A stretch of 61,059 bases of DNA from Thermodesulfobium sp. 4217-1 (lineage in GTDB: Bacteria; Thermodesulfobiota; Thermodesulfobiia; Thermodesulfobiales; Thermodesulfobiaceae): assembly GCF_039822205.1 (NCBI RefSeq), contig NZ_JBAGBW010000013.1, positions 1 through 61,059 of the forward strand, read 5' to 3'. Position numbers and translations under genes: made by a program. Every line of letters starts with the position of its first letter. Position 1 is the first letter of the stretch. Of the stretch, positions 23,166-39,214 are shown piece after piece. Under the pieces are notes generated by a model, which was not told the DNA's origin, searched no databases, and worked only from the letters and a program-made list of their open reading frames with translations.

Positions 23166-25883
23166 TTAAAATTTTTCAATAGCGCAGGCGCATGCCTTGT
23201 ATTCTGGTATCTTTGCCTCAGGATCGAGCGCGTTTATGGTGAGTATGTTTGCATTTGTTTCAGAGAAATGAAAGCTCACAAATATGACGCCTCTCTTGGG
23301 CTTCGTCGAAATTTTTACTTTTACGACGATCTCTCCGCGCCTTGTTCGAATTTTAACCTTATCTTTATTTTTAAGGTTGAGCTCTTTGGCATCTTCAGGA
23401 TTGATCTCTACGAAATTTTCTGGAACGAAATTTTCAAGCACCTTAACCCTTCTGGTTTCATTTCTTGAGTGATAATGGAAAAGCATTCTGCCAGTTGTAA
23501 GAATAAATGGATATTTATCATCGGGTATTTCAATGGGTGGATGAAACTCTACGCCGCTAATAAGAGCTTTCCCGTTAGGGCGCTTGAAGTTGCCATTGTA
23601 GTGGAGAATTTTCGTGCCTGTATGTGTTTCATCAGGACAAGGCCATTGCAGAGAATTTTCTTCCAATCTTTCATAGGTTATCCCTTTAAGTGAAGGCGTG
23701 AGCTCTCTTATTTCGTTCCAAATCATTTCCTCATCCTTATAATGCATTGAATATCCCATACGAGTGGCGACTTCACATACTATTTTCCAGTCATCTTTTA
23801 CAGATGGAGATGGATTCCTTGCAGGTCTCAGGAGCTGAACTCTTCTTTCTGTGTTCGTAAATGTACCAGACTTTTCATAAGCGGCTTTGGCAGGAAAGAC
23901 AACATCTGCAATTTCAGCAGTTTCAGAAAGAAAAATATCCTGTACGGCTAAGAATTCCAGCTTTCCAAGACTCTCTTTTACGTGACGAACGTCTGCTTCT
24001 GTGACCATCGGGTTTTCTCCCATTGTATACACGGCTTTTAGCTTTCCTTCAAGCGTCAGGTCTCCAAATTGTGATACTGCGTAGCCAGTGTTCTTAGGGA
24101 GATCTACCTTCCAGAAATCTTCGAATTTCTTTCTTGCAAATTCGTCTGTTACCCTCTGATAGCCTGTATATACGTCGGGTAATACGCCTACATCACATGC
24201 GCCCTGTACGTTTGATTGTCCTCTTAATGGGTCTATACCGTTTCCTTCTTTGCCTATGTGTCCTGTAATAAGAGCAAGATTTGCAATAGAAAGAACGTTG
24301 TCAACTCCTACATGGTGTTGTGTTATGCCCATTGTGTAGAAAATCATTGAATTTGGACCTTTAGCATAAACAATCGCTGCCTCTTCAATTAGTTTCTTAT
24401 CGACGCCTGTAATCTTTGAAGCATCATCTATATTAAAGTTTTCAAGAATCTTTAAGAGTCTTTCAAAGCCTTCTGTGTGATTGGCAATAAATTCTTTATC
24501 CGTAAGTTCTTGATCGACGATAATCTTCATCATCGCATTTAGAAGTATTACATCAGTTCCGGGGTAGTGTTGGATAAAAGTGTCGGCATATTTTGCAATA
24601 TCTGTATTCCTTGGATCACAAACTATTAATTTCGCTCCTCTTTTTTTCTTATTTTCTTTAATAAATTGAGCGATGACAGGATGAGTTTCGGTTGTATTAG
24701 AACCAATAATAAACATAACATCTGCGTTTTCAATGTCCGAGATTGGGTTTGTTGCAGCACCTGCTCCAAATGCCTTGCCTAATCCTGTAACGGTCGAAGA
24801 GTGGCACAGCCTTGCACAGTGATCTATGTTGTTTGTGCCCAAGGCAGCTCGCGCAAATTTTTGGATTATATAATTATCCTCGTTGGTGCAACGGGCAGAG
24901 CCAAGAACGCCAATGGAATCAGGGCCATATTTTTCTTTAATCTCAAGCAATCTGTTTGCAGTATAGTCAATGGCTTCTTCCCATGAGGCCTCTCTAAAAA
25001 TGCCATCTTCTTTTATAAGAGGTTTTGTGAGTCTCTCGAAAGAATTTACATATTCATAGCCATATCTACCCTTTACACAGAGTCTACCTCTGTTTGGATC
25101 TTTGTTTTCAACGGCTCTTGCCATAACAAGATTATTGTTTTTGTCTTTGTAAAGCGCAAGGTTGCAACCAACGCCACAATAGGCACATACAGTTTCAGTC
25201 TTTTTAAATTTAAATATCTTTCCCTTTCCAATTCGTGGTTTTTCGATAAGCGCACCGGTTGGACATGCTTGAACGCATGCTCCACAAAATTGGCAATTAG
25301 TTTGCTCCAGCGCGAGATTAAAAGGAGTAGAGACAACAGATTTATAACCTCTCATTGCAATGCCAATCGCTTCAACTACTGCCTGATTTTCGCAAGCGCC
25401 CACACAACACCTGCAAAGTATACACTTCTGTGGATCAAATTGAATAAACAGATTTGTATCCCACGCAGTTTCTATTGGACAAGAAAATGTATCTTTTTCG
25501 TCAAGAAATTGGCTCTTCTTTATGCCAAATTGATAAGCAAGATCTTGAAGAACGCAGTCAGAGTCTTTATCACATGTCATACAATCCAATGGGTGATGGG
25601 CCAGCAAGAGCTCAAGATTGATTTTTCTTGCTTCGTGTATAGCTTCTGAGTTTGTAGTGATTTCCATTCCTTCAGCAACTTCTGTAATACAAGCTCTTTG
25701 TAGAGTTTTTATACCTTTAATCTCTACCACACACAAACTGCATGAGCCTTCTTCTGAAATGCCCTCAAGATAGCAAAGAGTTGGTATTTCAAGGCCAACT
25801 TGTTTACATGCTTTTAAAATCGTGTCTCCCTTGTGAAACTGATAAGGTTTTCCGTCAATTTTTACATTTAATAATTCACTCAT
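23166..25883 (-). CDS. fdhA: Formate dehydrogenase catalytic subunit FdhA (Cys-type, NuoG-like N-terminus)
   Basis: The 905-aa protein begins with a [2Fe-2S] domain (SCSLC), then the NuoG-type HHPLDCMTCDKDSDC cluster, two [4Fe-4S] ferredoxin motifs (CILCRCCVGAC, CQFCGACVQACP), then a molybdopterin/tungstopterin oxidoreductase domain from about residue 230 with CAYCGVGCN and RLCVKGRYG. The metal ligand is Cys360 (CARLCHSSTV), where selenoenzymes have Sec. With NuoE/NuoF-like partners upstream it forms a cytoplasmic NAD(P)-linked, possibly electron-bifurcating formate dehydrogenase. SD AAAGGAG precedes the ATG. Confidence 0.92.
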   Translation of the reverse strand: MSELLNVKIDGKPYQFHKGDTILKACKQVGLEIPTLCYLEGISEEGSCSLCVVEIKGIKTLQRACITEVAEGMEITTNSEAIHEARKINLELLLAHHPLDCMTCDKDSDCVLQDLAYQFGIKKSQFLDEKDTFSCPIETAWDTNLFIQFDPQKCILCRCCVGACENQAVVEAIGIAMRGYKSVVSTPFNLALEQTNCQFCGACVQACPTGALIEKPRIGKGKIFKFKKTETVCAYCGVGCNLALYKDKNNNLVMARAVENKDPNRGRLCVKGRYGYEYVNSFERLTKPLIKEDGIFREASWEEAIDYTANRLLEIKEKYGPDSIGVLGSARCTNEDNYIIQKFARAALGTNNIDHCARLCHSSTVTGLGKAFGAGAATNPISDIENADVMFIIGSNTTETHPVIAQFIKENKKKRGAKLIVCDPRNTDIAKYADTFIQHYPGTDVILLNAMMKIIVDQELTDKEFIANHTEGFERLLKILENFNIDDASKITGVDKKLIEEAAIVYAKGPNSMIFYTMGITQHHVGVDNVLSIANLALITGHIGKEGNGIDPLRGQSNVQGACDVGVLPDVYTGYQRVTDEFARKKFEDFWKVDLPKNTGYAVSQFGDLTLEGKLKAVYTMGENPMVTEADVRHVKESLGKLEFLAVQDIFLSETAEIADVVFPAKAAYEKSGTFTNTERRVQLLRPARNPSPSVKDDWKIVCEVATRMGYSMHYKDEEMIWNEIRELTPSLKGITYERLEENSLQWPCPDETHTGTKILHYNGNFKRPNGKALISGVEFHPPIEIPDDKYPFILTTGRMLFHYHSRNETRRVKVLENFVPENFVEINPEDAKELNLKNKDKVKIRTRRGEIVVKVKISTKPKRGVIFVSFHFSETNANILTINALDPEAKIPEYKACACAIEKF

Positions 25884-25978
25884 TTGAAATCTCCTTTGTC
25901 TACTTCTTTAAATACTTCTTTTATAATTTCAAAACACTCGCAATTAACTTTTAACCTTGCTGGCTTTAAACTGACCAA
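25880..25978 (-). CDS. Possible 32-codon ORF overlapping the fdhA start
   Basis: In the 138-base gap before fdhA a short open frame from TTG 25978 ends in the stop of an ATGA overlap with the fdhA ATG. The peptide is Lys/Glu-rich with a CEC motif (KVNCECFEIIKEVFKEVD) and looks codon-like. It has no clear ribosome site. It may be a chance frame. Confidence 0.25.
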   Translation of the reverse strand: MVSLKPARLKVNCECFEIIKEVFKEVDKGDFK

Positions 25979-26021
25979 TTTGATTCAATCACTTCTCAAT
26001 ATAAGTCTTGCACATATCAAA

Positions 26022-27647
26022 TTAATTATTTTTTGCTTTCATTGAGCAAACATTTGCTGGACACACTTTGTCCTTCACGTGTGCTATATATTCATCTCTA
26101 AAATGTCTAAGTGTTGACAATACTGGATTTGGTGCGGTTTGTCCCAGTCCGCAAAGGGAGGTTTGCTTTATAACATTGCCAAGTTTCTCAAGAAGATCGA
26201 GGTCTTCCATTGTACCCAGCCCACTGGTAATTTTTTCCAAGATATTAAGCATTTGTCTTGTGCCTTCTCTGCAAGGTACACATTTACCGCAGGACTCGTC
26301 CACAGTAAATTTCAGGAAGAATTTGGCCACATCTACCATACAGCTTGTTTCATCCATTACAATAAGACCGCCAGAGCCCATAATTGCTCCAAGCTGAGGA
26401 AGATTTTCGTAATCCATAGGTATATCCAGGTGTTTTGCGGGGATAACCCCTCCAGATGGTCCTCCTGTTTGTGCAGCTTTAAATGTATGCCCTTCGGGAA
26501 TTCCTCCACCAATATCAAATACTATTGTTCTAAGAGGGGTCCCCAGTGGAACTTCAATCAAGCCTGCAATGTTAACCTTGCCTACAAGAGAAAAGGCTTT
26601 TGTTCCAGGGCTCTTATCAGTGCCAAACTGTCTAAAGAAATCTGCACCTTTTTCGATAATAATCGATACATTGGCAAGAGTTTCAACATTGTTTATAACT
26701 GTGGGTTTTCCAAATAGGCCGCTTTCAACTGGATAGGGCGGTTTCTTTCTTGGCTCACCACGTTTTCCCTCAGTAGAATTTATTAGGGCGGTTTCCTCTC
26801 CGCAAACAAATGCTCCCGCACCCATCCTCAGCTCTACGTCGAATGAAAAGTTTGTTCCCAGAATACCCTTGCCTAATAGGCCCGACATTCTTGCTTGTTT
26901 TATAGCAATCTCAAGCCTTTTAATTGCAAGGGGATATTCTGCTCTTATATAAATAAATCCCTTTTGAGCTCCGACTGCATATCCTGCTATTGCCATTCCT
27001 TCAAGAACAGAATGTGGGTCTCCTTCAAGGACAGATCTATTCATATAAGCGCCAGGATCTCCTTCGTCTGCGTTGCATATTATGTACTTGATATCAGATA
27101 TTTGTTTATTTGCAAGCTCCCATTTTAGTCCTGTAGGGAATCCCGCTCCTCCTCTTCCACGCAGTCCAGAATCCTTTATAATTTTTATTACATCTTTAGG
27201 GGTCATCTCGGTTATGCATCTGGCTAATGATTCATAACCTCCTTGCGCAATACATTCGGTTATGTCTTCCGGATTTATAAAACCGCAATTTCTCAAAACT
27301 ATTCTTGTCTGTTTTGCAAAGAATGGGGTCTCGTTTAATGTGAGAAATTGTTTTTCATCTTGTTTCCAGAGAAGTCTTGTTACAGGTCTTCCTCTAAGAA
27401 AATCTTCTTCTACAATCTCTTTTGCATCTTCTGGGCTAAGCCTTGTGTACATTATTCCTTCAGGATAAACAACCATTCGAGGGCCCAATTGGCAGGATCC
27501 CATACAACCAGTTTCGACAATAAGCACCTCTTCTGTTAGACCGTGTTGTTTCAATTCTTCTACTAGTGCATCTTTAAAGCCATTGCCTCCTGCTGCAAGA
27601 CATTGTGTTCCAGCACATACTAGTGCATGAATTCTATAAGTTTTCAT
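26022..27647 (-). CDS. NuoF/HndC-like NAD(P)H- and FMN-binding subunit of the formate dehydrogenase
   Basis: The 541-aa protein has an N-terminal thioredoxin-like [2Fe-2S] domain (CAGTQC and ETGCMGSC), then the NuoF core: GLRGRGGAGFPTGLKW for FMN/NADH, NADEGDPGAYMNR, GAYVC-like GAFVCGEETALI, and the C-terminal [4Fe-4S] site CGKCVPCREG. It ends soon after this site, so the extra C-terminal ferredoxin domain of HndC/HydB is absent. ATG 27647 lies behind AAAAGGAG and overlaps the preceding HndB-like stop by 4 bases. It passes electrons between FdhA and NAD(P). Confidence 0.92.
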   Translation of the reverse strand: MKTYRIHALVCAGTQCLAAGGNGFKDALVEELKQHGLTEEVLIVETGCMGSCQLGPRMVVYPEGIMYTRLSPEDAKEIVEEDFLRGRPVTRLLWKQDEKQFLTLNETPFFAKQTRIVLRNCGFINPEDITECIAQGGYESLARCITEMTPKDVIKIIKDSGLRGRGGAGFPTGLKWELANKQISDIKYIICNADEGDPGAYMNRSVLEGDPHSVLEGMAIAGYAVGAQKGFIYIRAEYPLAIKRLEIAIKQARMSGLLGKGILGTNFSFDVELRMGAGAFVCGEETALINSTEGKRGEPRKKPPYPVESGLFGKPTVINNVETLANVSIIIEKGADFFRQFGTDKSPGTKAFSLVGKVNIAGLIEVPLGTPLRTIVFDIGGGIPEGHTFKAAQTGGPSGGVIPAKHLDIPMDYENLPQLGAIMGSGGLIVMDETSCMVDVAKFFLKFTVDESCGKCVPCREGTRQMLNILEKITSGLGTMEDLDLLEKLGNVIKQTSLCGLGQTAPNPVLSTLRHFRDEYIAHVKDKVCPANVCSMKAKNN

Positions 27648-28018
27648 AGATTGCTCCTTTTGGAAGCCCAATCGCTAACAATTTGTCCCTTTATTGCATG
27701 AGAGGCAATAATTTCTCTTGCCATATTTGGTGTGATATTGCTATAGTAAACAACCAAGTCATCTCTCTCCAATGCCATAAATGGTTCTTTTATACCAGAT
27801 CCCATAGGGGCTTTTTCGATAATTTGGAAATCCGAAAAGTTTCTTTCTTTAAGCTCATCAAGGACTGCAAGAAGTACATCTCTTGAAGCATTGGTGTTTT
27901 CTTCTTTGTCAACGCTAATGTAGATTTTAACTTTTACATCCTTTTGCCTTGTTTTAAGAAAAGCCTGTGATTGTTCTTTTAATCTTCGCAATTCATCAAT
28001 TGATTTAATTTTTTCCAC
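27644..28018 (-). CDS. HndB-like thioredoxin-fold protein without cysteines
   Basis: The 124-aa protein aligns with HndB-type [2Fe-2S] subunits in overall layout (ASRDVLLAVLDELKERN, then a beta segment, then ITPNMAREIIASH), and has the operon position of HndB between NuoE- and NuoF-like genes. However, it has no cysteine at all: where HndB has its two Cys pairs, this protein reads DKEENTNAS and KAPMGSGIKEP. It cannot bind the cluster and may be structural. GTG start behind GGAGG. Confidence 0.8.
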   Translation of the reverse strand: MEKIKSIDELRRLKEQSQAFLKTRQKDVKVKIYISVDKEENTNASRDVLLAVLDELKERNFSDFQIIEKAPMGSGIKEPFMALERDDLVVYYSNITPNMAREIIASHAIKGQIVSDWASKRSNL

Positions 28019-28196
28019 CTAAAAACCTCCGTGTAAAGTTTTGCTTAACTTGATTATGAGTTTTTATATTAGTCAAAATCTTTAAAAAAGGTGCTTTATG
28101 TCTAATTTTTAACTCATAATTACCGATCTTAAAAGCTTTTTGTTTTTCAATTTCTATGATTTATTTATGTTATGGGTCTCTAAAGAGGGATCTTTG

Positions 28197-28661
28197 CTAC
28201 ATATACTTTTCAAGGATGTCGATAGCCGTTTCTGGCGTAAGTTTGCCATGAATATCTTTTCCATCCACTACCATAACTGGTGCGAAACCACAGCAACCCA
28301 CACACCTAACAGTTCTTACTGTAAATCTTCCATCTTTTGTGATTTCGTTTGGTTCAATGTCCAATCTTTTGCACAGTGCATTTAATATAGCTTCTCCTCC
28401 TTTAACGTAACACGCGGTACCCAGACAAGTCGTAATCACGTGCTCTGCGTCTTTTGTAAGTTTAAAGAAGTTATAAAAAGTGACAACGCCATAAATTTTG
28501 GATAGTGATACGTTCATTTTTTTTGCAATATAAGATAAAACTTCCTCAGGGAGATAGCCTAAGGACTCTTGAGTGCCATGCAAAACCTGAATTAGAGATT
28601 CGTGTTTTGTTCCCCATTTTCTAATTTCTTTGTCTACTGCGGGTATTTTTTTGCTTTCCAT
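28197..28661 (-). CDS. NuoE/HndA-like [2Fe-2S] subunit
   Basis: The 154-aa protein has the NuoE pattern: HESLIQVLHGTQESLGYLP, YGVVTFYNFF, then cluster ligands CLGTAC and CVGCC (Cys-x4-Cys and Cys-x3-Cys). It carries a [2Fe-2S] cluster and is the first gene of the formate dehydrogenase operon. The start is ATG 28661 behind AAAGGAG; a frame to 28790 adds 43 basic residues without a ribosome site. Confidence 0.9.
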   Translation of the reverse strand: MESKKIPAVDKEIRKWGTKHESLIQVLHGTQESLGYLPEEVLSYIAKKMNVSLSKIYGVVTFYNFFKLTKDAEHVITTCLGTACYVKGGEAILNALCKRLDIEPNEITKDGRFTVRTVRCVGCCGFAPVMVVDGKDIHGKLTPETAIDILEKYM

Positions 28662-29018
28662 TTTATCTCCTTTCAAAATTTTTACTTTAGCCTTTTTACC
28701 CTGCAATCTCTTTAAGCATTTCAACCCCTGCTGCATGCGGACTTTTTGCCATTTATCAACATATCTGCATGTAAACAATATCGATAACAAATTATATTTT
28801 TACCTGTTGTAATAATCATATTTTATAACTTTACCAACATTATGTAACCTTTTTGACTCAAGTTTATTGATAACTTATTTTTATCGTTAAAATAGAGATA
28901 CTTGACATCTTATATTAAATACTTTTAAATATATTAATACAACACAGCATCTTTGAATATAATATTCATTTTTTGTTGTAAAATAGTATTAATTTAAGTT
29001 AATTTTTGGGAGGAAATT
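28662..29018. other. Divergent intergenic region between the fdh and tolC operons
   Basis: The 357 bases hold no convincing gene. A plus-strand promoter for tolC is visible (28902-28930). On the minus side I see no clear promoter for the fdh operon. A 7-codon minus-strand frame (MLKEIAG) behind AGGGG lies in the fdh leader, probably by chance. Confidence 0.5.
28902..28930 (+). promoter_or_regulatory. Promoter of the TolC-RND operon
   Basis: TTGACA (28902-28907), a 17-base spacer and TTAAAT (28925-28930) lie about 90 bases before the GTG start of the tolC-like gene. Confidence 0.5.
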
Positions 29019-30353
29019 GTGAGGTTAATTGTTTTATTTTTTTTATTGTTTTTTCTAACACCCAAAATTTCTTATTCCGAGCCAATGAGTTTGAACTTAA
29101 ACGAGGCTATACAATATGCATTGGTAAACAATCATGAGTTAAAATCTCTTTCTGAGTCTATCCGCGTTAAAGAAGCTGATTTGGGTATTGCCCAAAGCAG
29201 TTATTTGCCAAAGCTCTCTTTCAATGAAACTTATATGAGGACAAACAATCCCACATACGCCTTTATGGCAAAGTTAAATGAAGGAAGATTTGCCCAAAGC
29301 GATTTTGACATAAATTCGCTTAATAATCCTTCTTCCATAAATGATTATCAAACGTCATTTACCGTCGATCAGCTTATATTTTCTAAAAAGGCCATTTTAG
29401 GCATAAGCATGGCGAAAAAAGATCTTCAAGCACAAAAGCTTGATTATCAGAGGAAGAAGGAAGATGTGGTATACAAGGTTATAAAAAGTTATTTGGATGT
29501 CCAGACTGCTAAAGAATATTTAAATGTTGCTCAGAAGGCCCTTGATGATTCTGTCGAACACGAAAAGATTGCTCAGATTAATTATAAAGTAGGGCTTAGC
29601 GTTTATTCTGATGTCTTGAGATCTGAAACCTCTGTTTTAGCTGCAAAAGAGAAGCTTGTAAGCGCTAAGAAAAATTTTCAAGTATTACAAAGGTCACTTG
29701 GCTTGGTTTTGGGTATAGATGATAATGTTCTTCCATCAGGTGATTTTGACTTTCCGATAAAGCTTCAAAGTGAAGACTATTACAAGAGCGCAAGTCTTAA
29801 CAGGGCTGATTTAAAAGCAATTGAATTGAGAAATAAGATTGCAAAAAATAATATTGAATTCGCCTCGGCAGGGTATTTGCCTTATGCTGGGCTATCTGCT
29901 ACTTATCAGATGAACGATCACAGTAATATTTTTGGGTCTGAGGGAGACAGCTATCAATTTCTCGCTTATTTAAGCTGGAACATATTTGACGGCACAAAGA
30001 GAGAAAATGAGATAAAAAAAGCAAAAGCAGAACAAAAAATGGCAGAAGAAAACCTAAAGGCTATGCAGGATGCTATCTCCTTAGAGGTATATAGTTCTTA
30101 CCTTGGGGTAGATGAAGCTAAAAAGAATTTGGAGCTTGCAAAGGGAGCCTTAGCTAGTGCAGAAGAAGACGCAACCATTATTTTACACAGATATCAAAAT
30201 GCCCTTTCTCCGTTTATAGATTTATTGGATGCGCAGACAAATTTGGATAATATAAGAGCAAATCTGGTTGATAAAGAAAATAAATATTATATGTCTATGG
30301 TAGATCTTGATTACAAAAGCGGAACATTGCTTTCAGATCTGGGAATTAAGTAA
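29019..30353 (+). CDS. TolC-family outer-membrane efflux protein
   Basis: The 444-aa protein has a signal peptide (about 1-20, cut after SYS) and two repeats of long heptad helices with Ala/Leu/Asn periodicity, as in TolC. It forms the outer-membrane channel of the RND pump encoded next. Start GTG behind GGGAGG. It leads a five-gene operon. Confidence 0.88.
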   Translation: MRLIVLFFLLFFLTPKISYSEPMSLNLNEAIQYALVNNHELKSLSESIRVKEADLGIAQSSYLPKLSFNETYMRTNNPTYAFMAKLNEGRFAQSDFDINSLNNPSSINDYQTSFTVDQLIFSKKAILGISMAKKDLQAQKLDYQRKKEDVVYKVIKSYLDVQTAKEYLNVAQKALDDSVEHEKIAQINYKVGLSVYSDVLRSETSVLAAKEKLVSAKKNFQVLQRSLGLVLGIDDNVLPSGDFDFPIKLQSEDYYKSASLNRADLKAIELRNKIAKNNIEFASAGYLPYAGLSATYQMNDHSNIFGSEGDSYQFLAYLSWNIFDGTKRENEIKKAKAEQKMAEENLKAMQDAISLEVYSSYLGVDEAKKNLELAKGALASAEEDATIILHRYQNALSPFIDLLDAQTNLDNIRANLVDKENKYYMSMVDLDYKSGTLLSDLGIK

Positions 30354-30373
30354 GATTTTAAAGGGAGGACGAT

Positions 30374-31456
30374 ATGAATAAAAAGTTAAAATCATTTCGC
30401 ATTTATCCAATACTTTTCTTGTTATCATTATTAGCTATTTTTCTTATTTCAGGCTGCTCTTCAAACCAACCAAAGAAAATTGAGAGCAAGACCATAGAAG
30501 GCGTTAAGCTCCAAACGGTAAATCAAGGCGATTTGCCAAACTATTTGGAGGCGACAGGGACAGTAAAGGCTAAGATAATTAGCGTCATTACAAGTAAAGT
30601 TATGGGAACCATTACATCTGTCAATGTAAAAGACGGCGACAGCGTTTCAGAGGGTCAGGTGCTCCTAACCGTCTACGATCAAGATGCGTCTGAAAGAGTA
30701 AGACAAGCAGAAAAAAATCTTGATGCTGCAAGATTGAACATGTCTTTGAGCAATGCTACTTATATGAGGTATAGGGCTCTATATGACGAAAAGGCTCTAA
30801 GCCAACAAGAGATGGATCAGATAATTACCGAGAAGGAACTTGCGAAAGCGAACTATGAAAGGGCAGTGGCAGCAGTAGGCGAGGCTAAGGTTATGAGAAG
30901 CTTTTATACAGTCACTTCTCCGATTTCTGGGATAGTATCTTCTAAAAAAGTTGATGTAGGTACTACCGCTATGCCTGGAATGCCTCTGCTTAATGTAGAA
31001 AATACATCCAGTTTTGAATTGGACGCAAATGTTGACTCAAAATATTCTCAGGATTTAAAAGTTGGTTCCAATGTTGGTGTTAAAGTTGAATCTTTGCCTG
31101 AAATACAGGGCAAAATATCTGAAATAGTGCCCTCTGTAGATCCTATGTCAAGGTCTTTTGTGGTCAAGATTGAACTTGGCTCAGGGAACCTTAGAAGCGG
31201 TATGTATGGAAAGGCATATTTCAATATTGGCACGAAGAAGGCAATTTCTATTCCAGAATCAGCCCTTGTGAGAAAAGGTGGGCTGGTTGGCGTATATGTG
31301 GTAGACGATAAGGGATTGGTAAGTTATAGAATGGTTAAGTTGGGCGAGAAATATGGAAAGAACGTTGAGATTCTGTCTGGCCTTTCTAATGGGGAAAAGA
31401 TAATAGTTGAAGGCACTGAGAATGCTTTTGACGGCGCAATTGTAAAAGGAAGTTAG
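30374..31456 (+). CDS. RND efflux membrane-fusion lipoprotein
   Basis: The 360-aa protein has a lipoprotein signal ending in SGC (ISGCSS). The mature part follows the HlyD/AcrA plan: a beta-lipoyl half (GTITSVNVKDGDSVSEGQVL), a coiled-coil hairpin (about 105-165), the second lipoyl half (VTSPISGIVSSKKVDVGT) and a beta-barrel (MYGKAYF). It bridges the TolC-like and RND proteins. It lies 20 bases after tolC and 10 before the pump gene. Confidence 0.9.
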   Translation: MNKKLKSFRIYPILFLLSLLAIFLISGCSSNQPKKIESKTIEGVKLQTVNQGDLPNYLEATGTVKAKIISVITSKVMGTITSVNVKDGDSVSEGQVLLTVYDQDASERVRQAEKNLDAARLNMSLSNATYMRYRALYDEKALSQQEMDQIITEKELAKANYERAVAAVGEAKVMRSFYTVTSPISGIVSSKKVDVGTTAMPGMPLLNVENTSSFELDANVDSKYSQDLKVGSNVGVKVESLPEIQGKISEIVPSVDPMSRSFVVKIELGSGNLRSGMYGKAYFNIGTKKAISIPESALVRKGGLVGVYVVDDKGLVSYRMVKLGEKYGKNVEILSGLSNGEKIIVEGTENAFDGAIVKGS

Positions 31457-31466
31457 GAGTACAAAT

Positions 31467-34400
31467 ATGAAATTCGGCATTGCAGGTAAAATAGCACAGC
31501 TTTTTATAAGGTCGAAGCTTACTCCTTTGATAGTTATTACTGCTTTGATATTGGGAATTTTTGCAGTAATTGTGACCCCTAGAGAAGAAGATCCACAAAT
31601 AGTAGTTCCAATGATTGACGTTTTTGTGCAATATCCAGGAGCCTCTGCGAAAGAAGTTGAGGAAAGAGTTACGAAGCCTATGGAAAAGTTTTTGTGGGAG
31701 ATTAAGGGTGTAGAGTACATATACTCAACTTCTGAGCCTGGTCTTAGCATGGTAACAGTCAGATACAAGGTCGGGGAAGATATGGAAAAGAGTATTACAA
31801 ACCTTTACACAAAGCTCTTTTCTCACCTCGATCTGATTCCGCCTGGCGTTTCAATGCCAATTGTAAAGCCAAAATCCATAAATGATGTGCCAGTTATGAC
31901 TTTTACTTTGTGGAGCAATGAATATAACGGCTATGATCTTAGGAAAGTTGCACTAGAAACTTGTGATTATATCAAAAAAGATAGAGATGTGTCTGAAACA
32001 CAAATCATAGGTGGTCCAAAAAGAGAAGTAAAGGTTGATCTCGATCCACTAAAATTAAAGTCTTATCACATTTCACCAATTCAGATATCTCAAATGATAA
32101 GTTCTGCTAACGTATCTCTCTCGACAGGTTCTTTCCCGCTAAATAACTACGAATTTTTAGTCGAGACTGGAACATTTCTTAAAGATGCAAATGATGTGGG
32201 CAATGTAATTGTCGGAGTTTTCAATGGTAGACCAGTAAAGTTAAGCGATGTCGCTACTATAACAGATGGACCCCAAGAGGCAAAAAATTATGTGTTTATG
32301 GGTTTTGGTCCGTCATGGGACAAGAGCATACCAGGTATTGAGAGGTCGAGCCTTTATCCAGCCGTTACTATTACAGTAGCAAAAAAGAAGGGCACAAATG
32401 CAACTGATTTGTCCGATAGATTGTTGCATGATATTTCTCGTCTGAAAGGTACTGTTATACCAAAGGGTGTAACTATTACTACTACCAGAAATTATGGAAA
32501 TACTGCTAATGAGAAGTCCAATGAGTTACTAGAACACATGCTTCTTGCTGCTGTATCGGTTACTGTTCTGATAGGCTTGAGCCTTGGAATTAGAGAGGCC
32601 TTAGTAGTTGCTGTAGCCATTCCTGTTACTTTAGCACTTACGCTCTTGGCGACCTACTTATTAGGATTTACCCTTAACAGGGTTACCTTGTTCGCACTGA
32701 TCTTTTCTATAGGTATTCTGGTAGACGACGCTATTGTAGTTGTAGAAAACATACACAGACATTTTAGAGAGAAAGAAGTGTCTATACTAGTTGCCATTCA
32801 AGCAGTAAATGAGGTAGGAAATCCAACCATACTTGCGACTTTTACGGTTATTGCAGCTCTGTTGCCTATGGCTTTTGTGTCTGGCATGATGGGGCCATAT
32901 ATGAAGCCTATACCTATTGGTGCTTCTGCTGCAATGATAATCTCTCTTCTTATTGCATTTATAATTAGCCCATGGCTTAGTTATATTGTGCTGAAAAATG
33001 TTAAAAGAACGGATAAAGAGAAAGAAAATAGAGTAATAGCCTCTTTTAACAAGATATACAGAAAAAATCTTACTTCAATGTTAGAAAGTGGCAAAAAAAG
33101 AGTAGCTTTCATAATTTTTACTATAATATGTCTTTTAGCTGCCGTAGCACTTTTGCCATTAAAAGTAGTTATGGTAAAGATGCTGCCTTTTGATAACAAG
33201 AGTGAGATTCAGGTCTTGATAGATACTCCAAAGGGTACCACTCTTGAGACTACGAATGCGCTTGCTGAAAAAATTGCAGAATATATTAGAACTGTGCCTG
33301 AGGTCGACAACTATCAAATATATTCGGGCACAGCATCCCCAATAACATTTAATGGGCTTGTAAGACACTATTTTCTTAGGAAAGGCGACGATGTAGCCGA
33401 TATCCAGATAAACCTGGTTCCTAAAGATAAAAGAAGTGCGCAAAGCCACGATATTGCTAAGAGAATTAGAGGGCCTATTGATCAGATTGCTAGTCCCTAT
33501 AACGCCAGGATAAAAATTGTAGAGGTTCCGCCTGGTCCGCCAGTACTCAGTACTCTTGTGGCTGAGGTTTACGGTCCTAACTTTAATGAGCAATTGAAAA
33601 TTGCCTCAAAGGTTGAAGATATATTTAAAAAGACGCGCGATGTGGTGGATGTTGATTGGTTACAAAATGAAGAGCAAACAAAATATGTTTTCAAAGTTGA
33701 TAAAGAAAAGGCTGCTTACAATGGCATCTCTACCTATGCTATAGCACAAAGCCTTCAAATGGCACTTCACGGAAGTGATGCAGGACTTTTGCACACCGAT
33801 CACAGCAGAGAGCCTGTGGAGATTTGGGTCCAGGCTCCTTTGAAAAATAGAGCAAGCCTTGATGGGCTCCAAAATGTCTCATTGCCTTCTTCTACAAATC
33901 ATATGGTCTCTCTTGCTGAGTTGGTAACCTTAGAGAAGACAAACGAAGATCAGCCTATTTACCGAAAGAATCTTAGAAGGGTCGTTTATGTTATTGGTGA
34001 TGTTGCAGGCAGAGAAGAGAGCCCTATATATGCAATTTTACATATGAATAAACCTGTTTCTGACATAAAAGTTCCAGGTAGTAATCCTCTTAAGCTTTAT
34101 TTTACCCATGAGCCTCCACTGGGCCTAAACTACTCAGTAAAGTGGGATGGTGAATGGCAGATTACCTATGAGGTGTTTAGAGATTTGGGAATTGCTTTTG
34201 CTGTAGTTCTAATTATCATCTATGTAATGATAGTCGGGTGGTTTAAGTCCTATATTACGCCACTCATTATTATGGCTCCAATACCGCTATCTTTGATAGG
34301 TATATTGCCTGCACACGCTCTTTTGAGTGCATTTTTTACTGCCACTTCAATGATAGGTTTTATTGCAGGTGCTGGTATAGTGGTTAGAAACTCAATTATA

Positions 34401-34706
34401 TTGGTTGATTTTATAGAAATGAAATTAAATGAAGGGGTTCCTCTAAAAGAATCTATAATAGAGGGTTGCCTTGTTAGGTTTAGGCCGATGTTTTTGACTG
34501 CAGCTGCAGTAGTAGTTGGTTCAAGCGTGATACTTTCTGATCCTATATTTCAAGGAATGGCTATATCGTTGATGGCTGGAGAAGTAGCCGTTACGTTATT
34601 CTCATGGACGCTATTGCCTATTTTGTATTTTATATATAAAGACACTGAAATCAAGGTCAAAGAGGGAAAGATAAAGTTCGACATAAAAAAGATTTTTAAG
34701 AGGTGA
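31467..34706 (+). CDS. RND-family efflux pump (AcrB/HAE1-like)
   Basis: The 1079-aa protein has 12 membrane segments and two large periplasmic loops, the normal RND plan. The TM4 proton relay SIGILVDDAIVVVEN carries the paired Asp. The C-terminal half has GIVVRNSIILVDF and VRFRPMFLTAAA. Substrates are likely hydrophobic or amphipathic compounds; the sequence does not tell which. It is followed after 6 bases by a DUF2892 protein. Confidence 0.92.
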   Translation: MKFGIAGKIAQLFIRSKLTPLIVITALILGIFAVIVTPREEDPQIVVPMIDVFVQYPGASAKEVEERVTKPMEKFLWEIKGVEYIYSTSEPGLSMVTVRYKVGEDMEKSITNLYTKLFSHLDLIPPGVSMPIVKPKSINDVPVMTFTLWSNEYNGYDLRKVALETCDYIKKDRDVSETQIIGGPKREVKVDLDPLKLKSYHISPIQISQMISSANVSLSTGSFPLNNYEFLVETGTFLKDANDVGNVIVGVFNGRPVKLSDVATITDGPQEAKNYVFMGFGPSWDKSIPGIERSSLYPAVTITVAKKKGTNATDLSDRLLHDISRLKGTVIPKGVTITTTRNYGNTANEKSNELLEHMLLAAVSVTVLIGLSLGIREALVVAVAIPVTLALTLLATYLLGFTLNRVTLFALIFSIGILVDDAIVVVENIHRHFREKEVSILVAIQAVNEVGNPTILATFTVIAALLPMAFVSGMMGPYMKPIPIGASAAMIISLLIAFIISPWLSYIVLKNVKRTDKEKENRVIASFNKIYRKNLTSMLESGKKRVAFIIFTIICLLAAVALLPLKVVMVKMLPFDNKSEIQVLIDTPKGTTLETTNALAEKIAEYIRTVPEVDNYQIYSGTASPITFNGLVRHYFLRKGDDVADIQINLVPKDKRSAQSHDIAKRIRGPIDQIASPYNARIKIVEVPPGPPVLSTLVAEVYGPNFNEQLKIASKVEDIFKKTRDVVDVDWLQNEEQTKYVFKVDKEKAAYNGISTYAIAQSLQMALHGSDAGLLHTDHSREPVEIWVQAPLKNRASLDGLQNVSLPSSTNHMVSLAELVTLEKTNEDQPIYRKNLRRVVYVIGDVAGREESPIYAILHMNKPVSDIKVPGSNPLKLYFTHEPPLGLNYSVKWDGEWQITYEVFRDLGIAFAVVLIIIYVMIVGWFKSYITPLIIMAPIPLSLIGILPAHALLSAFFTATSMIGFIAGAGIVVRNSIILVDFIEMKLNEGVPLKESIIEGCLVRFRPMFLTAAAVVVGSSVILSDPIFQGMAISLMAGEVAVTLFSWTLLPILYFIYKDTEIKVKEGKIKFDIKKIFKR

Positions 34707-34712
34707 TAATAT

Positions 34713-34937
34713 ATGTATATGGCTCCAACAGACAATTGGTATCTTGAGAGAATCATATTTCTTATTGCAGGTTTATTTATATTAATTAGCTTAGCCCTGG
34801 GACTCTTGTGGAGCCCTTACTGGTTTATATTAACTTTTTTAGTGGGGATAAATTTAATAATATTTGCCCTTACAGGATTTTGTATAATGGCTAATATCCT
34901 TTATAAGTTTGGAGTCAAACCAAAGATAAAACGATAG
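34713..34937 (+). CDS. DUF2892 small membrane protein
   Basis: The 74-aa protein has two membrane segments (about 9-30 and 35-58) and resembles the DUF2892/YgaP-type membrane domain (NWYLERIIFLIAG, WFILTFLVGINL, TGFCIMANIL). Start ATG behind AGAGGTG. Its function is unknown; small proteins like this often follow RND pump genes. Confidence 0.75.
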   Translation: MYMAPTDNWYLERIIFLIAGLFILISLALGLLWSPYWFILTFLVGINLIIFALTGFCIMANILYKFGVKPKIKR

Positions 34938-34957
34938 CTTTTAAAATGGGGTGAACA

Positions 34958-36724
34958 GTGCAAGAAAATTTATTTCAGGAAGAGTTAAATGAAGCTTTAT
35001 CAATAGCAAAGAAGACTGGAACCTATTTTGATAGGCTATTTGTCGAGAATCCAAAATTAGCGTTGAGCGAAATTGAAAATATAGAAGAGAAGATCGGCCT
35101 ACATCTTAGGGAAAAGTTTCCTTACTATGGCTTTCATTGTGAATCTATGGGGATAGTCTCACAATCAACTCACGACAATAATACATATTGGATAGTTTCA
35201 GCTCTTTCTGGATCTGAGCCATATTCAAAAGGTTATAGAGGGTCGTCTGTTTCAATTGCTCTGCTATCAAACAGAGAATTGGTACTGGGAGTAGTGAATT
35301 CTTTTAATTTTGATGACGTGTTTTATTGGGCAAAAGGCTTAGACTGTGTATATAGAAATGGTCAAAAAACTTTCAATTTGTCTAATTCAAATGTTGTCCT
35401 TACTTCTTACGATGCTGATAAAAATAGTATTGCAAATTCAAGGCTTTGCTATCCTTTTAAGTACAAATGCGTGCCATGCTTTTCCTATAGATTGGCATTA
35501 AGCGCTGTGGGGGAGGGCGTTTTTGCAATTGATTGCTCGAGTCCCACGACATTTACATACGCTGCGGCCCACGCTCTTTTAATTGGAAATGGGCTAAATC
35601 TTTTTGATGAGTCGGGCAAGGAGATAGTCTATTCAAAGCAAGGTTATAGCGGTTGCGGTCAAGTATGCTTTGGTGGAGCCTACGAGGTAATAAAAGAATT
35701 TGTGGGGAAGAACTGGAAAAGTGTACTTTATAGGCAGCTCCCTGAGAATATTCTTGATCTCAACCAAACAAATACGCCCAAAATTGGAAAATATGTTAAA
35801 GATAAGGATTTATTATCTAAAGCACAAGGCGCTATGATGGGTTTAGTGATTGGCGATTCTTTTGGATATTCTAACAGCAATGAAAAGATTATTGACTTTA
35901 CTATTGAAAATCAAATGTTAGAGCCTGTAAATTCTGAAATAGTAATCTTAGAATCAAGGGTTCTGTCTAAATATTGTTCATATAACTATAAAAAAGTTGT
36001 TGAGGCTTACCTGTATTGGTATAATTCTGAGCCAGTAGAGGTGGATTTTGCCCAATCGAGCGCTTTTAGCTCTCTTAACTCATTGGGGCATATTCCAGAA
36101 GGATATTCTTCTGAGTCTATTGATGAAGTTTCAAATTCATTTTTATTAAGGACTATACCGATATCAATATTTACTTTAAACTCTTCGCTCCAAGAGGCCC
36201 TTAGCATTGCGGAGCTTGATTGTAAGATAACCAATCCAAATTATATTTGTTTAGAGTGCGCAAAAGTTCTATTGTATTCGCTTAGGTTATCTTTGAAAAG
36301 GAAAATGACAAAAGATGATTTGTATAAGTTCGTTGTTAATTTTGTAAATGAAAATGGTTTCTCGGATATTCTAAAGAGTACTCTTTCCGATGCCCAGAAT
36401 CAACCTCATCCAAAACACGATACAAAACCTGAAAATGTTTTGGTATGCCTTCAAAACTTATTTTATGAGTTGCTACATTCAAATAATTTTGAAGATTCTA
36501 TTTTAAAAACTTCAATAAGAGGGGGAGACACTTCGAAGAACTGTGCTTTAGTGGGATCTTTATTTGGTGCGCTGTATGGAATGGGAAATATTCCCATCTA
36601 TTTTAGGGATAAAGTCCTTTCCAGTAGGTCCATAAAGGGATTGCCAAAAATTACTTACCCAAGGTCTCAGATATTTTGGCCAGTTGATATTTTAATTATT
36701 GCTGAAAATCTTTTAAAATGTTAA
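34958..36724 (+). CDS. Fusion of degenerate IMPase-like and ADP-ribosylglycohydrolase-like domains
   Basis: The 588-aa protein joins two enzyme-like domains. Residues 1-265 follow the inositol monophosphatase layout, but the signature WIxDPxDGT reads WIVSALSGS (78-86), losing both metal-binding Asp. Residues about 285-588 follow the ADP-ribosylglycohydrolase (DraG/ARH) layout, starting AQGAMMGLVIGDSFGY and ending GGDTSKNCALVGSLFGALYG; the second Asp of GGDTD is Ser529 and the usual TDDT is missing. Both active sites therefore look damaged. GTG start. It is the last gene of the RND operon. Confidence 0.75.
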   Translation: MQENLFQEELNEALSIAKKTGTYFDRLFVENPKLALSEIENIEEKIGLHLREKFPYYGFHCESMGIVSQSTHDNNTYWIVSALSGSEPYSKGYRGSSVSIALLSNRELVLGVVNSFNFDDVFYWAKGLDCVYRNGQKTFNLSNSNVVLTSYDADKNSIANSRLCYPFKYKCVPCFSYRLALSAVGEGVFAIDCSSPTTFTYAAAHALLIGNGLNLFDESGKEIVYSKQGYSGCGQVCFGGAYEVIKEFVGKNWKSVLYRQLPENILDLNQTNTPKIGKYVKDKDLLSKAQGAMMGLVIGDSFGYSNSNEKIIDFTIENQMLEPVNSEIVILESRVLSKYCSYNYKKVVEAYLYWYNSEPVEVDFAQSSAFSSLNSLGHIPEGYSSESIDEVSNSFLLRTIPISIFTLNSSLQEALSIAELDCKITNPNYICLECAKVLLYSLRLSLKRKMTKDDLYKFVVNFVNENGFSDILKSTLSDAQNQPHPKHDTKPENVLVCLQNLFYELLHSNNFEDSILKTSIRGGDTSKNCALVGSLFGALYGMGNIPIYFRDKVLSSRSIKGLPKITYPRSQIFWPVDILIIAENLLKC

Positions 36725-36754
36725 TAAATTATTATCATATAAGGAGGCAATACA

Positions 36755-37264
36755 ATGGATGCAATTAACGCATTGTTTAGCAGGAGAAGTATCAGGGCTT
36801 ATACTGATAAAGAAATATCTCAGGAAGATATAGAGACTATTTTAAGAGCTGCAATGTCTGCACCGTCTGCAGGTGGTGGTAACGTTTGTCATTATATAGT
36901 AGTAAAAGACAAAGATTTATTAAAAGAGGTTCTTAAATATCACCAATATGCTCACATGCTCTTACAGGCAAATGCTGCAATAGTTGTAGTGTCCGATCCC
37001 TCTCTGGAAAAATATCCTGGCAGATGGCCCTTGAATAGCTCTGCATCTACTGAGAACATGCTCATTGCCGCTACTGCATTGGGCATAGGATCTTGCTGGG
37101 TCGGCATCTATCCAGTAGAAGAAAGAATGAATGGTCTTAGAAAAATATTTAATATTTCTGATAACTTGATCCCTTTTGCAATTGTGTCGCTTGGATATCC
37201 TGCTGAAAATAAAAAACCACATGGTGAGTTAGATAGTTCAATAATTCATAACAATAAGTGGTAA
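36755..37264 (+). CDS. Nitroreductase-family flavoprotein
   Basis: A 169-aa FMN-dependent nitroreductase. Family landmarks are FSRRSIRAYTDKEIS at the start, APSAGG in the middle and GSCWVGIYP and SLGYPAE toward the end. It probably reduces quinones, nitro compounds or flavins using NAD(P)H. SD AAGGAGG precedes the ATG. The two Opp/Dpp ATPase genes follow after 13 bases. Confidence 0.9.
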   Translation: MDAINALFSRRSIRAYTDKEISQEDIETILRAAMSAPSAGGGNVCHYIVVKDKDLLKEVLKYHQYAHMLLQANAAIVVVSDPSLEKYPGRWPLNSSASTENMLIAATALGIGSCWVGIYPVEERMNGLRKIFNISDNLIPFAIVSLGYPAENKKPHGELDSSIIHNNKW

Positions 37265-37277
37265 AAATAGCTTATTA

Positions 37278-38255
37278 ATGGCATTGTTGGATGTAGAAAA
37301 TTTAACCTTAGGGTTTTATTCTGAAAAGAACAAGAAATGGTCAAAGGTTTTAAATGACGTCAACTTTAGCCTTTATGAAAATGAATTTTTAGGTATAGTA
37401 GGAGAATCGGGTTCGGGTAAAACAATCCTTGCAAATTCTATTTTGAACCTGATACCAAAACAAGGGAATATAGTATCAGGATCTATACTTTTTAAAGATA
37501 GGGATATTTTGAAGCTTACAGAAGATCAAATTAGAAAAGTTAGAGGCAAAGATATTGCAATAATTTTTCAGGACCCGATGAGTTCTCTTCATCCGCTTCT
37601 TACTGTGAAGGACCAAATAGTTGAGACTTTGCAGGCTCATAGGTTGATAAAAAAGTCTGACGCGGTTGAGATTGCAATGAATCTTCTGAGAGATGTCAAG
37701 ATAGATCGGCCAGAATTAGTTCTAAACAAATATCCATTTATGCTTAGCGGTGGCATTAGACAGAGGGTGATGATTGCTATCGCCATTTCTTGCGGTCCAG
37801 AGATAGTTATAGCTGATGAGCCTACAACTGCTCTTGATGTAACAGTGCAAAGAGATATTTTAGCTTTAATAAAAGGTTTTAAAAAAAATTTGAATTTTTC
37901 TTTAATGCTTGTTTCTCATGATTTAGGGGTAATATGGGAAAATACCGATAGGGTTGTGGTGATGTACTGCGGAAGAATAATGGAAAGCGGCAAAACAGAG
38001 GACGTATTAAGAAATCCTCTACATCCTTATACATTTGGGCTTTTGTCTTCGATACCAAGAAAGACTGGTAAAAAATTAGAAATTCTTAAAGGAATTAGGG
38101 GCAGCATCCCTTCTTTGCATGACTTTCCCGATCATATATGCCCATTTTTGCCAAGATGCGATTTTGCAACAGAACAATGTAACGGACCTTTGTTGTTAGA
38201 ACAGGTAGATAGAGATAGATTTGTAGCCTGTTTTAATAAGGGCGCGTTTAAATAG
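37278..38255 (+). CDS. Peptide/nickel-type ABC transporter ATPase, OppD/DppD-like
   Basis: The 325-aa protein has Walker A GESGSGKT, FQDPMSSLHP, signature LSGGIRQRV and Walker B ADEPTTALDV, then the C-terminal Opp-type Cys region (CPFLPRCDFATEQC), a [4Fe-4S] site in some members. It overlaps the next ATPase by 1 base. No permease or binding-protein gene is adjacent. Confidence 0.88.
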   Translation: MALLDVENLTLGFYSEKNKKWSKVLNDVNFSLYENEFLGIVGESGSGKTILANSILNLIPKQGNIVSGSILFKDRDILKLTEDQIRKVRGKDIAIIFQDPMSSLHPLLTVKDQIVETLQAHRLIKKSDAVEIAMNLLRDVKIDRPELVLNKYPFMLSGGIRQRVMIAIAISCGPEIVIADEPTTALDVTVQRDILALIKGFKKNLNFSLMLVSHDLGVIWENTDRVVVMYCGRIMESGKTEDVLRNPLHPYTFGLLSSIPRKTGKKLEILKGIRGSIPSLHDFPDHICPFLPRCDFATEQCNGPLLLEQVDRDRFVACFNKGAFK

Positions 38256-39214
38256 TGCTATTTCAGGCAGAAAATATTTGTAAGACCTTCTATAAAAGAA
38301 ACTTTTTACGCTTAAAAGATGTAGGTTTAGATGCATTAAAGGACATTAAATTTGGCATTCAAGATAGAGATATCATAGGAATAGTTGGAGAAACTGGGTC
38401 AGGTAAGAGCACCCTTGGAAGAATTTTTGTGGGCTTAGAGAAACCTTCTAGTGGGTTTCTTTACTACAACAACAATAATATTTTTAAATTAAGCAAAAAG
38501 GATTTTAGAGAGTTTCAAAAGAGCACTTCTTTCATATTTCAGGATCCATATTCGTCTTTTAATCCTAAAATGAAGGTTTTAGACATACTTCTTGAACCTC
38601 TAATTCTTGGGGGCATTGAAATAATTAAAAGAAAGGACATGGTAGATGAAATAATTGAAAATGTTGGGCTAAAAAGTGATGACCTTGGGAAATTTCCGTA
38701 TCAATTTAGCGGTGGTCAAAGGCAAAGAATAGCAATAGCCAGGTCTTTAATTCTCAAGCCAAAATTCTTGGTCGCCGATGAGCCTGTTTCTTCGCTGGAT
38801 CTCTCTGTAAAGGCTCAAATATTGAAATTATTTGAAGAGATATATGCTAAAAGCGATCTTACAATGATGATAATATCTCACGATCTCTCTATTGTCGAAT
38901 ATCTGTGTAACAAATCAATAGTCCTTTACAAGGGCTTGATGATGGAAGAGGCCTTTACTGATAGTATTTTCAACAATCCCCTTCACCCATATACACGACT
39001 TTTGATTAAATCAGCTCCATCTTTGTATTCTGACAGAGCTAAGAATGTGGAATTAGAAGCTTTTGAATCACCAATTAACCTTGAAAGCGCGAAATTAAAA
39101 TTGTGTCCATTTTTAGAAAGGTGTAAATTAAAAGTTGATAAGTGTAGAGAAAGTTTTCCTGAGATTATAGAAGTAAAAACAAATCATAGAGTGAGATGTC
39201 TCAGGTATATTTAA
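38255..39214 (+). CDS. Peptide/nickel-type ABC transporter ATPase, OppF/DppF-like
   Basis: The 319-aa protein has Walker A GETGSGKST, FQDPYSSFNP, signature FSGGQRQRIAIARSL and Walker B ADEPVSSLDLS, plus a C-terminal cysteine cluster (CPFLERCKLKVDKC). It pairs with the preceding ATPase as OppD/OppF. Start GTG, overlapping the stop of the previous gene by one base. It is convergent with the HD-GYP gene and overlaps it by 4 bases. Confidence 0.88.
   Translation: MLFQAENICKTFYKRNFLRLKDVGLDALKDIKFGIQDRDIIGIVGETGSGKSTLGRIFVGLEKPSSGFLYYNNNNIFKLSKKDFREFQKSTSFIFQDPYSSFNPKMKVLDILLEPLILGGIEIIKRKDMVDEIIENVGLKSDDLGKFPYQFSGGQRQRIAIARSLILKPKFLVADEPVSSLDLSVKAQILKLFEEIYAKSDLTMMIISHDLSIVEYLCNKSIVLYKGLMMEEAFTDSIFNNPLHPYTRLLIKSAPSLYSDRAKNVELEAFESPINLESAKLKLCPFLERCKLKVDKCRESFPEIIEVKTNHRVRCLRYI

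Follow-up and report, generated by a model that had tools for sequence, protein, structure and literature searches.

In Escherichia coli, SuhB, an active enzyme of the inositol-monophosphatase (IMPase) fold, has a function in rRNA antitermination beyond catalysis (PMC4807359). In the DraG/ARH family, the vertebrate protein ADPRHL1 (ARH2) is a pseudoenzyme without some residues that catalysis requires, and it has a biological role (PMC7390403, PMC10601310). In the same family, the substitution D77N or D78N alone abolishes the activity of human ARH3 on serine-ADP-ribose (PMC5552275).

Here, we analyze a protein which joins both folds in a single chain. It is encoded in a 61,059-nucleotide stretch of DNA from Thermodesulfobium sp. 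4217-1 (contig NZ_JBAGBW010000013.1), which is called the window below. Like SuhB, the protein contains an IMPase fold, but SuhB is an active IMPase and is devoid of a hydrolase half. The likeness to ADPRHL1 lies in a DraG/ARH domain in which residues needed for catalysis are missing; in contrast, ADPRHL1 is eukaryotic and has neither a phosphatase half nor a bacterial operon context. In structure and sequence, the C-terminal half matches DraG and the immunity protein Tri1 best. However, the fusion scores far below the NCBIfam equivalog cut-offs of DraG (TIGR02662, 48.1 versus 337 bits) and Tri1 (47 versus 490 bits), and likewise below that of the CysQ equivalog (TIGR01331, 25.3 versus 228.8 bits).

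Architecture and fold of the fusion protein

The open reading frame encodes 588 amino acids from a GTG start codon, with a good ribosome-binding sequence (GGGGTGA) upstream. Its parts are as follows:

34958..36724, + strand: IMPase-like / ADP-ribosylglycohydrolase-like fusion gene (588 aa, GTG start), with orthologues in four of four genomes of the genus
34958..35743, + strand: N-terminal inositol-monophosphatase (CysQ/SuhB) fold, residues about 1-262 (PF00459; the AlphaFold2 model matches SuhB/IMPase)
35744..35803, + strand: linker, residues about 263-282, partly of low confidence (pLDDT below 50 at 264-267)
35804..36721, + strand: C-terminal ADP-ribosylglycohydrolase (DraG/ARH) fold, residues about 283-588 (PF03747; DraG 2woc)

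The domain assignment of both halves is settled, since Pfam matches above the curated cut-offs, a confident AlphaFold2 model and Foldseek matches all agree. PF00459 (Inositol_P) matches residues 42-229 with 31.2 bits (cut-off 27) and PF03747 (ADP_ribosyl_GH) matches residues 326-546 with 74.5 bits (cut-off 26.2). The model of the whole fusion, built with 13 aligned relatives, has a mean pLDDT of 85.4 and a pTM of 0.88. In Foldseek searches, its N-terminal half resembles chains of SuhB, IMPA and histidinol-phosphate phosphatase, with E-values of about 1e-9 to 1e-10. The C-terminal half adopts the all-alpha DraG/ARH fold of DraG (2woc), MJ1187 (1t5j), the Thermus thermophilus protein 2yzw and also ARH3. 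The best match of this half is DraG 2woc with a TM-score by target of 0.77, and most fold matches of either half lie at roughly 0.7-0.8. Chance resemblance of either half is ruled out by the Pfam, PDB sequence and fold searches.

The protein is also rich in cysteine, with 15-17 residues in the genus versus 4-14 in relatives. Fourteen of these cysteines are invariant in the genus; most of them are scattered and do not occur in the intact family.

The two former metal sites

The positions of the family metal ligands map to the window as follows:

35141..35146, + strand: E62-S63 at the GEE position; the first Glu (E70 of IMPA1) is kept and the second is replaced by Ser
35198..35215, + strand: S81-A-L-S84-G-S86 at the DPxDGT position; two metal Asp are replaced by Ser, and Thr by Ser or Leu
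35555..35557, + strand: T200 at the position of the third metal Asp (WDxAAG > FTYAAA)
35852..35866, + strand: G299-D300-S-F-G303, the GDxxG of the hydrolase half, kept
35918..35932, + strand: L321-E322-P-V-N325 at the TDD position (T>L, D>E, D>N)
36521..36538, + strand: G522-G-D524-T-S526-K527 at the GGDTDT position; the first Asp is kept, the second is replaced by Ser, and Thr by Lys

The phosphatase half has lost three of its four metal-binding acids (D>S81, D>S84 and D>T200). Residues 77-86 read YWIVSALSGS where relatives have WxVDPNDGT, residues 199-204 read FTYAAA where the family alignment has WDxAAG, and position 86 has changed from Thr to Ser or Leu across the genus. The fourth acid, E62, is retained in all fusions. 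Loss of this residue as well, that is of the entire GEE motif, was considered and ruled out, since E62 is retained in the family alignment and also when the spacing is counted without gaps.

In the hydrolase half, D524 is the only residue left of the T, D, D, D, D, T set. The others are replaced (T>L321, D>E322, D>N325, D>S526, T>K527), D>E322 being a mild change. Residues 522-527 read GGDTSK instead of the GGDTDT of relatives, TDD is absent from an aligned stretch which reads QMLEPVNSE, and a stretch upstream of this position is deleted in comparison with active-looking relatives. D300 is kept throughout the genus. Some further pocket positions conserved in active-looking relatives have changed (H>N426, G>S394). 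They may contact a ligand, which therefore need not be ADP-ribose.

The DPxDGT and GGDTDT substitutions are also seen in pairwise alignments to PDB chains, made independently of the family alignment. Nearly identical replacements occur in all four genomes of the genus (SALSGS or SALSGL, and FTYAA or FSYAA) and are fixed except at positions 86 and 200, which excludes a sequencing error. Catalytic positions are changed in 10 of 13 cases, versus 38 of 102 for other family-conserved positions (Fisher p=0.014).

The preliminary description had recognized both halves, had read WIVSALSGS as the replacement of two metal Asp, and had pointed to GGDTSK and the missing TDD. All of this stands, and the Pfam searches and structure prediction which it had proposed as checks recover both families and both folds. 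Its account of the phosphatase half was incomplete, since the third loss (D>T200) had been overlooked.

Both Asp aligned to D77 and D78 of ARH3, and more, are replaced in the fusion. Since either ARH3 substitution is sufficient to abolish activity, ADP-ribosylhydrolase activity of the window protein is unlikely. Judged by its residues, neither half would be catalytically active. E62, E322, N325 and D524 could possibly form a weak residual metal site.

Intact relatives and the history of the loss

By tblastn and genome scans, 20 full-length fusions with the same domain order were found outside the window genus. The architecture, for which a search in related genomes had been suggested, is thus not peculiar to the window genome. 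It is rare, being carried by no more than a handful of the 386 genomes sampled. Its hosts belong to Myxococcota, Acidobacteriota, Armatimonadota and other phyla, and it is also present on plasmids from Azospirillum, Rhodobacter and Pseudomonas luteola. In nineteen of the 20, the metal-binding residues of GEE, DPxDGT, WDxAAG, TDD and GDTDT are all present. The intact fusions (for example G054, G152, G407, L035, L049 and the plasmid copies) share with the window protein the domain order, the length class and a C-terminal PRPxxxWPVDALxLAExLL motif. This motif is common to the fusions and is also carried by some stand-alone hydrolases of the subgroup. Over the whole protein, identity is about 27-31%. 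In contrast to the window fusion, which lacks most of these motifs, the intact proteins keep GEE, DPNDGT, WDxAAG, PTDDSEMAL and GGDTDTN, and on this basis they are apparently active as bifunctional enzymes. In G054, the phosphatase half scores best against CysQ-type bisphosphate nucleotidases and the hydrolase half against DraG, both far below the equivalog cut-offs. PADLOC holds no matching model, so that a reading as an anti-phage system is unsupported, and a search of a paper library found no paper there naming both families (IMPase-type and ADP-ribosylglycohydrolase). Given these scores and both negative searches, the intact CysQ-like/DraG-like family appears to be unnamed. Its members are found at loci L035, L036, L038-L045, L048, L049, L053, L029-L031, L081 and L109.

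No conserved neighbourhood of the intact fusions was found in metagenome bins. A phage or viral origin is unsupported, as neither the phage collection nor a peptide-pattern search of IMG/VR yielded a fusion. Individual copies lie near WYL regulators, TM0106 RecB-like nucleases and restriction genes, and in Rhodobacter a NUDIX hydrolase gene lies directly downstream of the intact fusion (L031:2791-12147; L029:10100-17625; L045:6047-7033; L113:13221-14240); a link to defence islands is possible. A stand-alone hydrolase of the same subgroup (L115:5522-9959) directly follows genes for an AAA_5 ATPase (McrB-like) and McrC in an operon-like arrangement. In Azospirillum brasilense, a fusion-length match (NZ_CP059450.1:198801-200444) has no gene listed in the plasmid table.

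The exception among the 20 relatives is G010 (bacterium SKW228, L005/L050; L005:1345-3234). It has the same fusion with a lost hydrolase site, as in the window; however, its phosphatase site is complete and its hydrolase residues are replaced differently. G010 sits on a long branch and groups with the intact G407 (support 100/98). A single clade of G010 and the window genus, which would make the loss a shared one, is rejected (p-AU 0.028, to be read with caution in view of the long branches). From this placement and this test, the hydrolase site was probably lost at least twice. In the fusion tree, the window genus itself stands on a very long stem of 2.86, as against a median of 0.59 for end branches, and its inner branches are short.

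Maintenance, genomic context and possible role

A full-length copy is present in four of four genomes of the genus, with 76-96% identity to the window copy. Two genome pairs have unsaturated dS and were used for dN/dS, which is 0.106 for G000/G002 and 0.135 for G001/G003, and similarly low in each half. Both halves are thus under strong purifying selection (dN/dS about 0.1). The presence in four genomes and this ratio rule out sequencing error and a pseudogene. That two pseudoenzyme-type modules are joined in one protein, as the preliminary description had suggested, is borne out by this selection and by the existence of active-looking fusion relatives.

Conservation around the former sites was compared within the genus in windows centred on the mapped residues. 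Near the former hydrolase site, 2 of 34 positions vary versus 91 of 272 in the rest of the half (p=0.0006). The surroundings of the former phosphatase site vary at 6 of 33 positions versus 65 of 228 elsewhere in its half, and are not significantly more conserved (p=0.30). Windows set on the motifs gave p=1e-10; these had partly been noticed beforehand, and the residue-centred test, in which the signal persists in the hydrolase half only, is the fairer one. In view of this low variation, the former hydrolase pocket looks like a working surface or pocket. E62, D524, E322, N325 and Lys527 are invariant in the genus, and so are the stretches 573-588 and 225-240, which lie outside the pockets.

The fusion gene lies in a run on one strand, from 29019 to 39214, with gaps of at most 30 bases:

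29019..30353, + strand: outer-membrane efflux protein (TolC-like), first gene of the run (Pfam OEP, 203 bits)
30374..31456, + strand: membrane-fusion protein (HlyD/CusB type), conserved order
31467..34706, + strand: RND pump of the AcrB/AcrD/AcrF family (Pfam ACR_tran, 526 bits)
34713..34937, + strand: YgaP-like transmembrane protein of 74 aa, between pump and fusion (PF11127, 33.7 bits), kept in G001 and G003
36755..37264, + strand: nitroreductase-family protein, conserved order
37278..39214, + strand: two overlapping ABC ATPases of the oligopeptide-transporter (Opp) type, conserved order

The same order, with the fusion between the YgaP-like and nitroreductase genes, is found in G001 and G003; the genes to the left of the run differ in G003. 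An operon with an RND pump, as previously proposed, is consistent with the sequence. This arrangement supports a unit, which would be co-transcribed. Upstream of the run, genes for cysteine-rich proteins adjoin one for a NuoE-like protein (23166-28790, - strand); together they may encode a hydrogenase or an NADH-linked complex. Elsewhere, the genome encodes a separate complete IMPase (P0006). No other PF03747 protein was found in the genome, so the cell has no active hydrolase of this family which the fusion might accompany as an inactive partner. A search of the genome for DraT gave no match, and its control also matched nowhere.

With both metal sites lost and the protein kept intact by evolution, the window fusion probably works by binding and not by catalysis. 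SuhB and ADPRHL1 provide precedents for a non-catalytic role in both folds. The likely explanation, in our judgement, is a maintained twin pseudoenzyme derived from a bifunctional enzyme, which acts as a non-catalytic binding or regulatory protein and whose former hydrolase pocket binds a ligand. The ancestor of the fusion united a phosphatase of the CysQ/IMPase type with an ADP-ribosylhydrolase of the DraG type, a combination which is active-looking today in other bacteria. In the window genus, both metal centres were dismantled and the protein was retained, probably for binding and regulation. The former hydrolase pocket would bind its ligand without the metal pair, Lys527 replacing the metal charge, and the two-domain body may relay this binding to a protein partner. 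The fusion, the RND pump, the nitroreductase and the ABC ATPases are probably produced together and serve the same stress or export response. The nature of the ligand, which the preliminary description had supposed to be ADP-ribosylated or phosphorylated, and any effect on the pump belong to this conditional part of the proposal. A more specific version, where both former pockets jointly form a ligand sensor controlling the RND efflux and nitroreductase operon, is doubtful.

A pure scaffold, whose pockets bind no small ligands and whose surface acts as in SuhB with Nus factors or as proposed for ADPRHL1, is a tentative alternative which we hold to be rather unlikely. It has these precedents in both folds, and it accords with a former phosphatase pocket that is not specially conserved and with the invariance of segments away from the pockets (573-588 and 225-240, among others). 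However, a scaffold need not show the much lower variation found around the former hydrolase site than in the rest of that half. The invariance of the remaining acids and Lys527, and a cysteine content above that of relatives, could befit a re-purposed enzyme. Here, one pocket would catalyze another reaction with a single metal (at E62, or at D524/E322/N325), with none, or through Lys527 or one of the 14 genus-invariant cysteines. Such an enzyme is distinctly improbable, as no new catalytic motif is recognizable, most of the invariant cysteines are scattered and missing from relatives, and both original motifs are altered at several positions at once. The long stem branch could also be taken as a sign of a gene being lost with drifting residues, and so could a dN/dS of 0.09 for the fusion versus 0.06 for the nitroreductase and 0.03 for the RND gene in the same genome pair. 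Against this stand reading frames that are open and equally long in each of the four genomes, the conserved gene order, and substitutions which are fixed and not scattered. Purifying selection at a dN/dS of about 0.1 largely refutes decay, which we regard as hardly credible.

For the non-catalytic binding protein that we favour, two dead domains in one bacterial chain and active-looking relatives of the same architecture form a natural before-and-after pair, in which the function of a protein after the loss of catalysis can be studied. The family of intact fusions, in turn, may hint at consecutive reactions that act on ADP-ribose or phosphoadenosine compounds.
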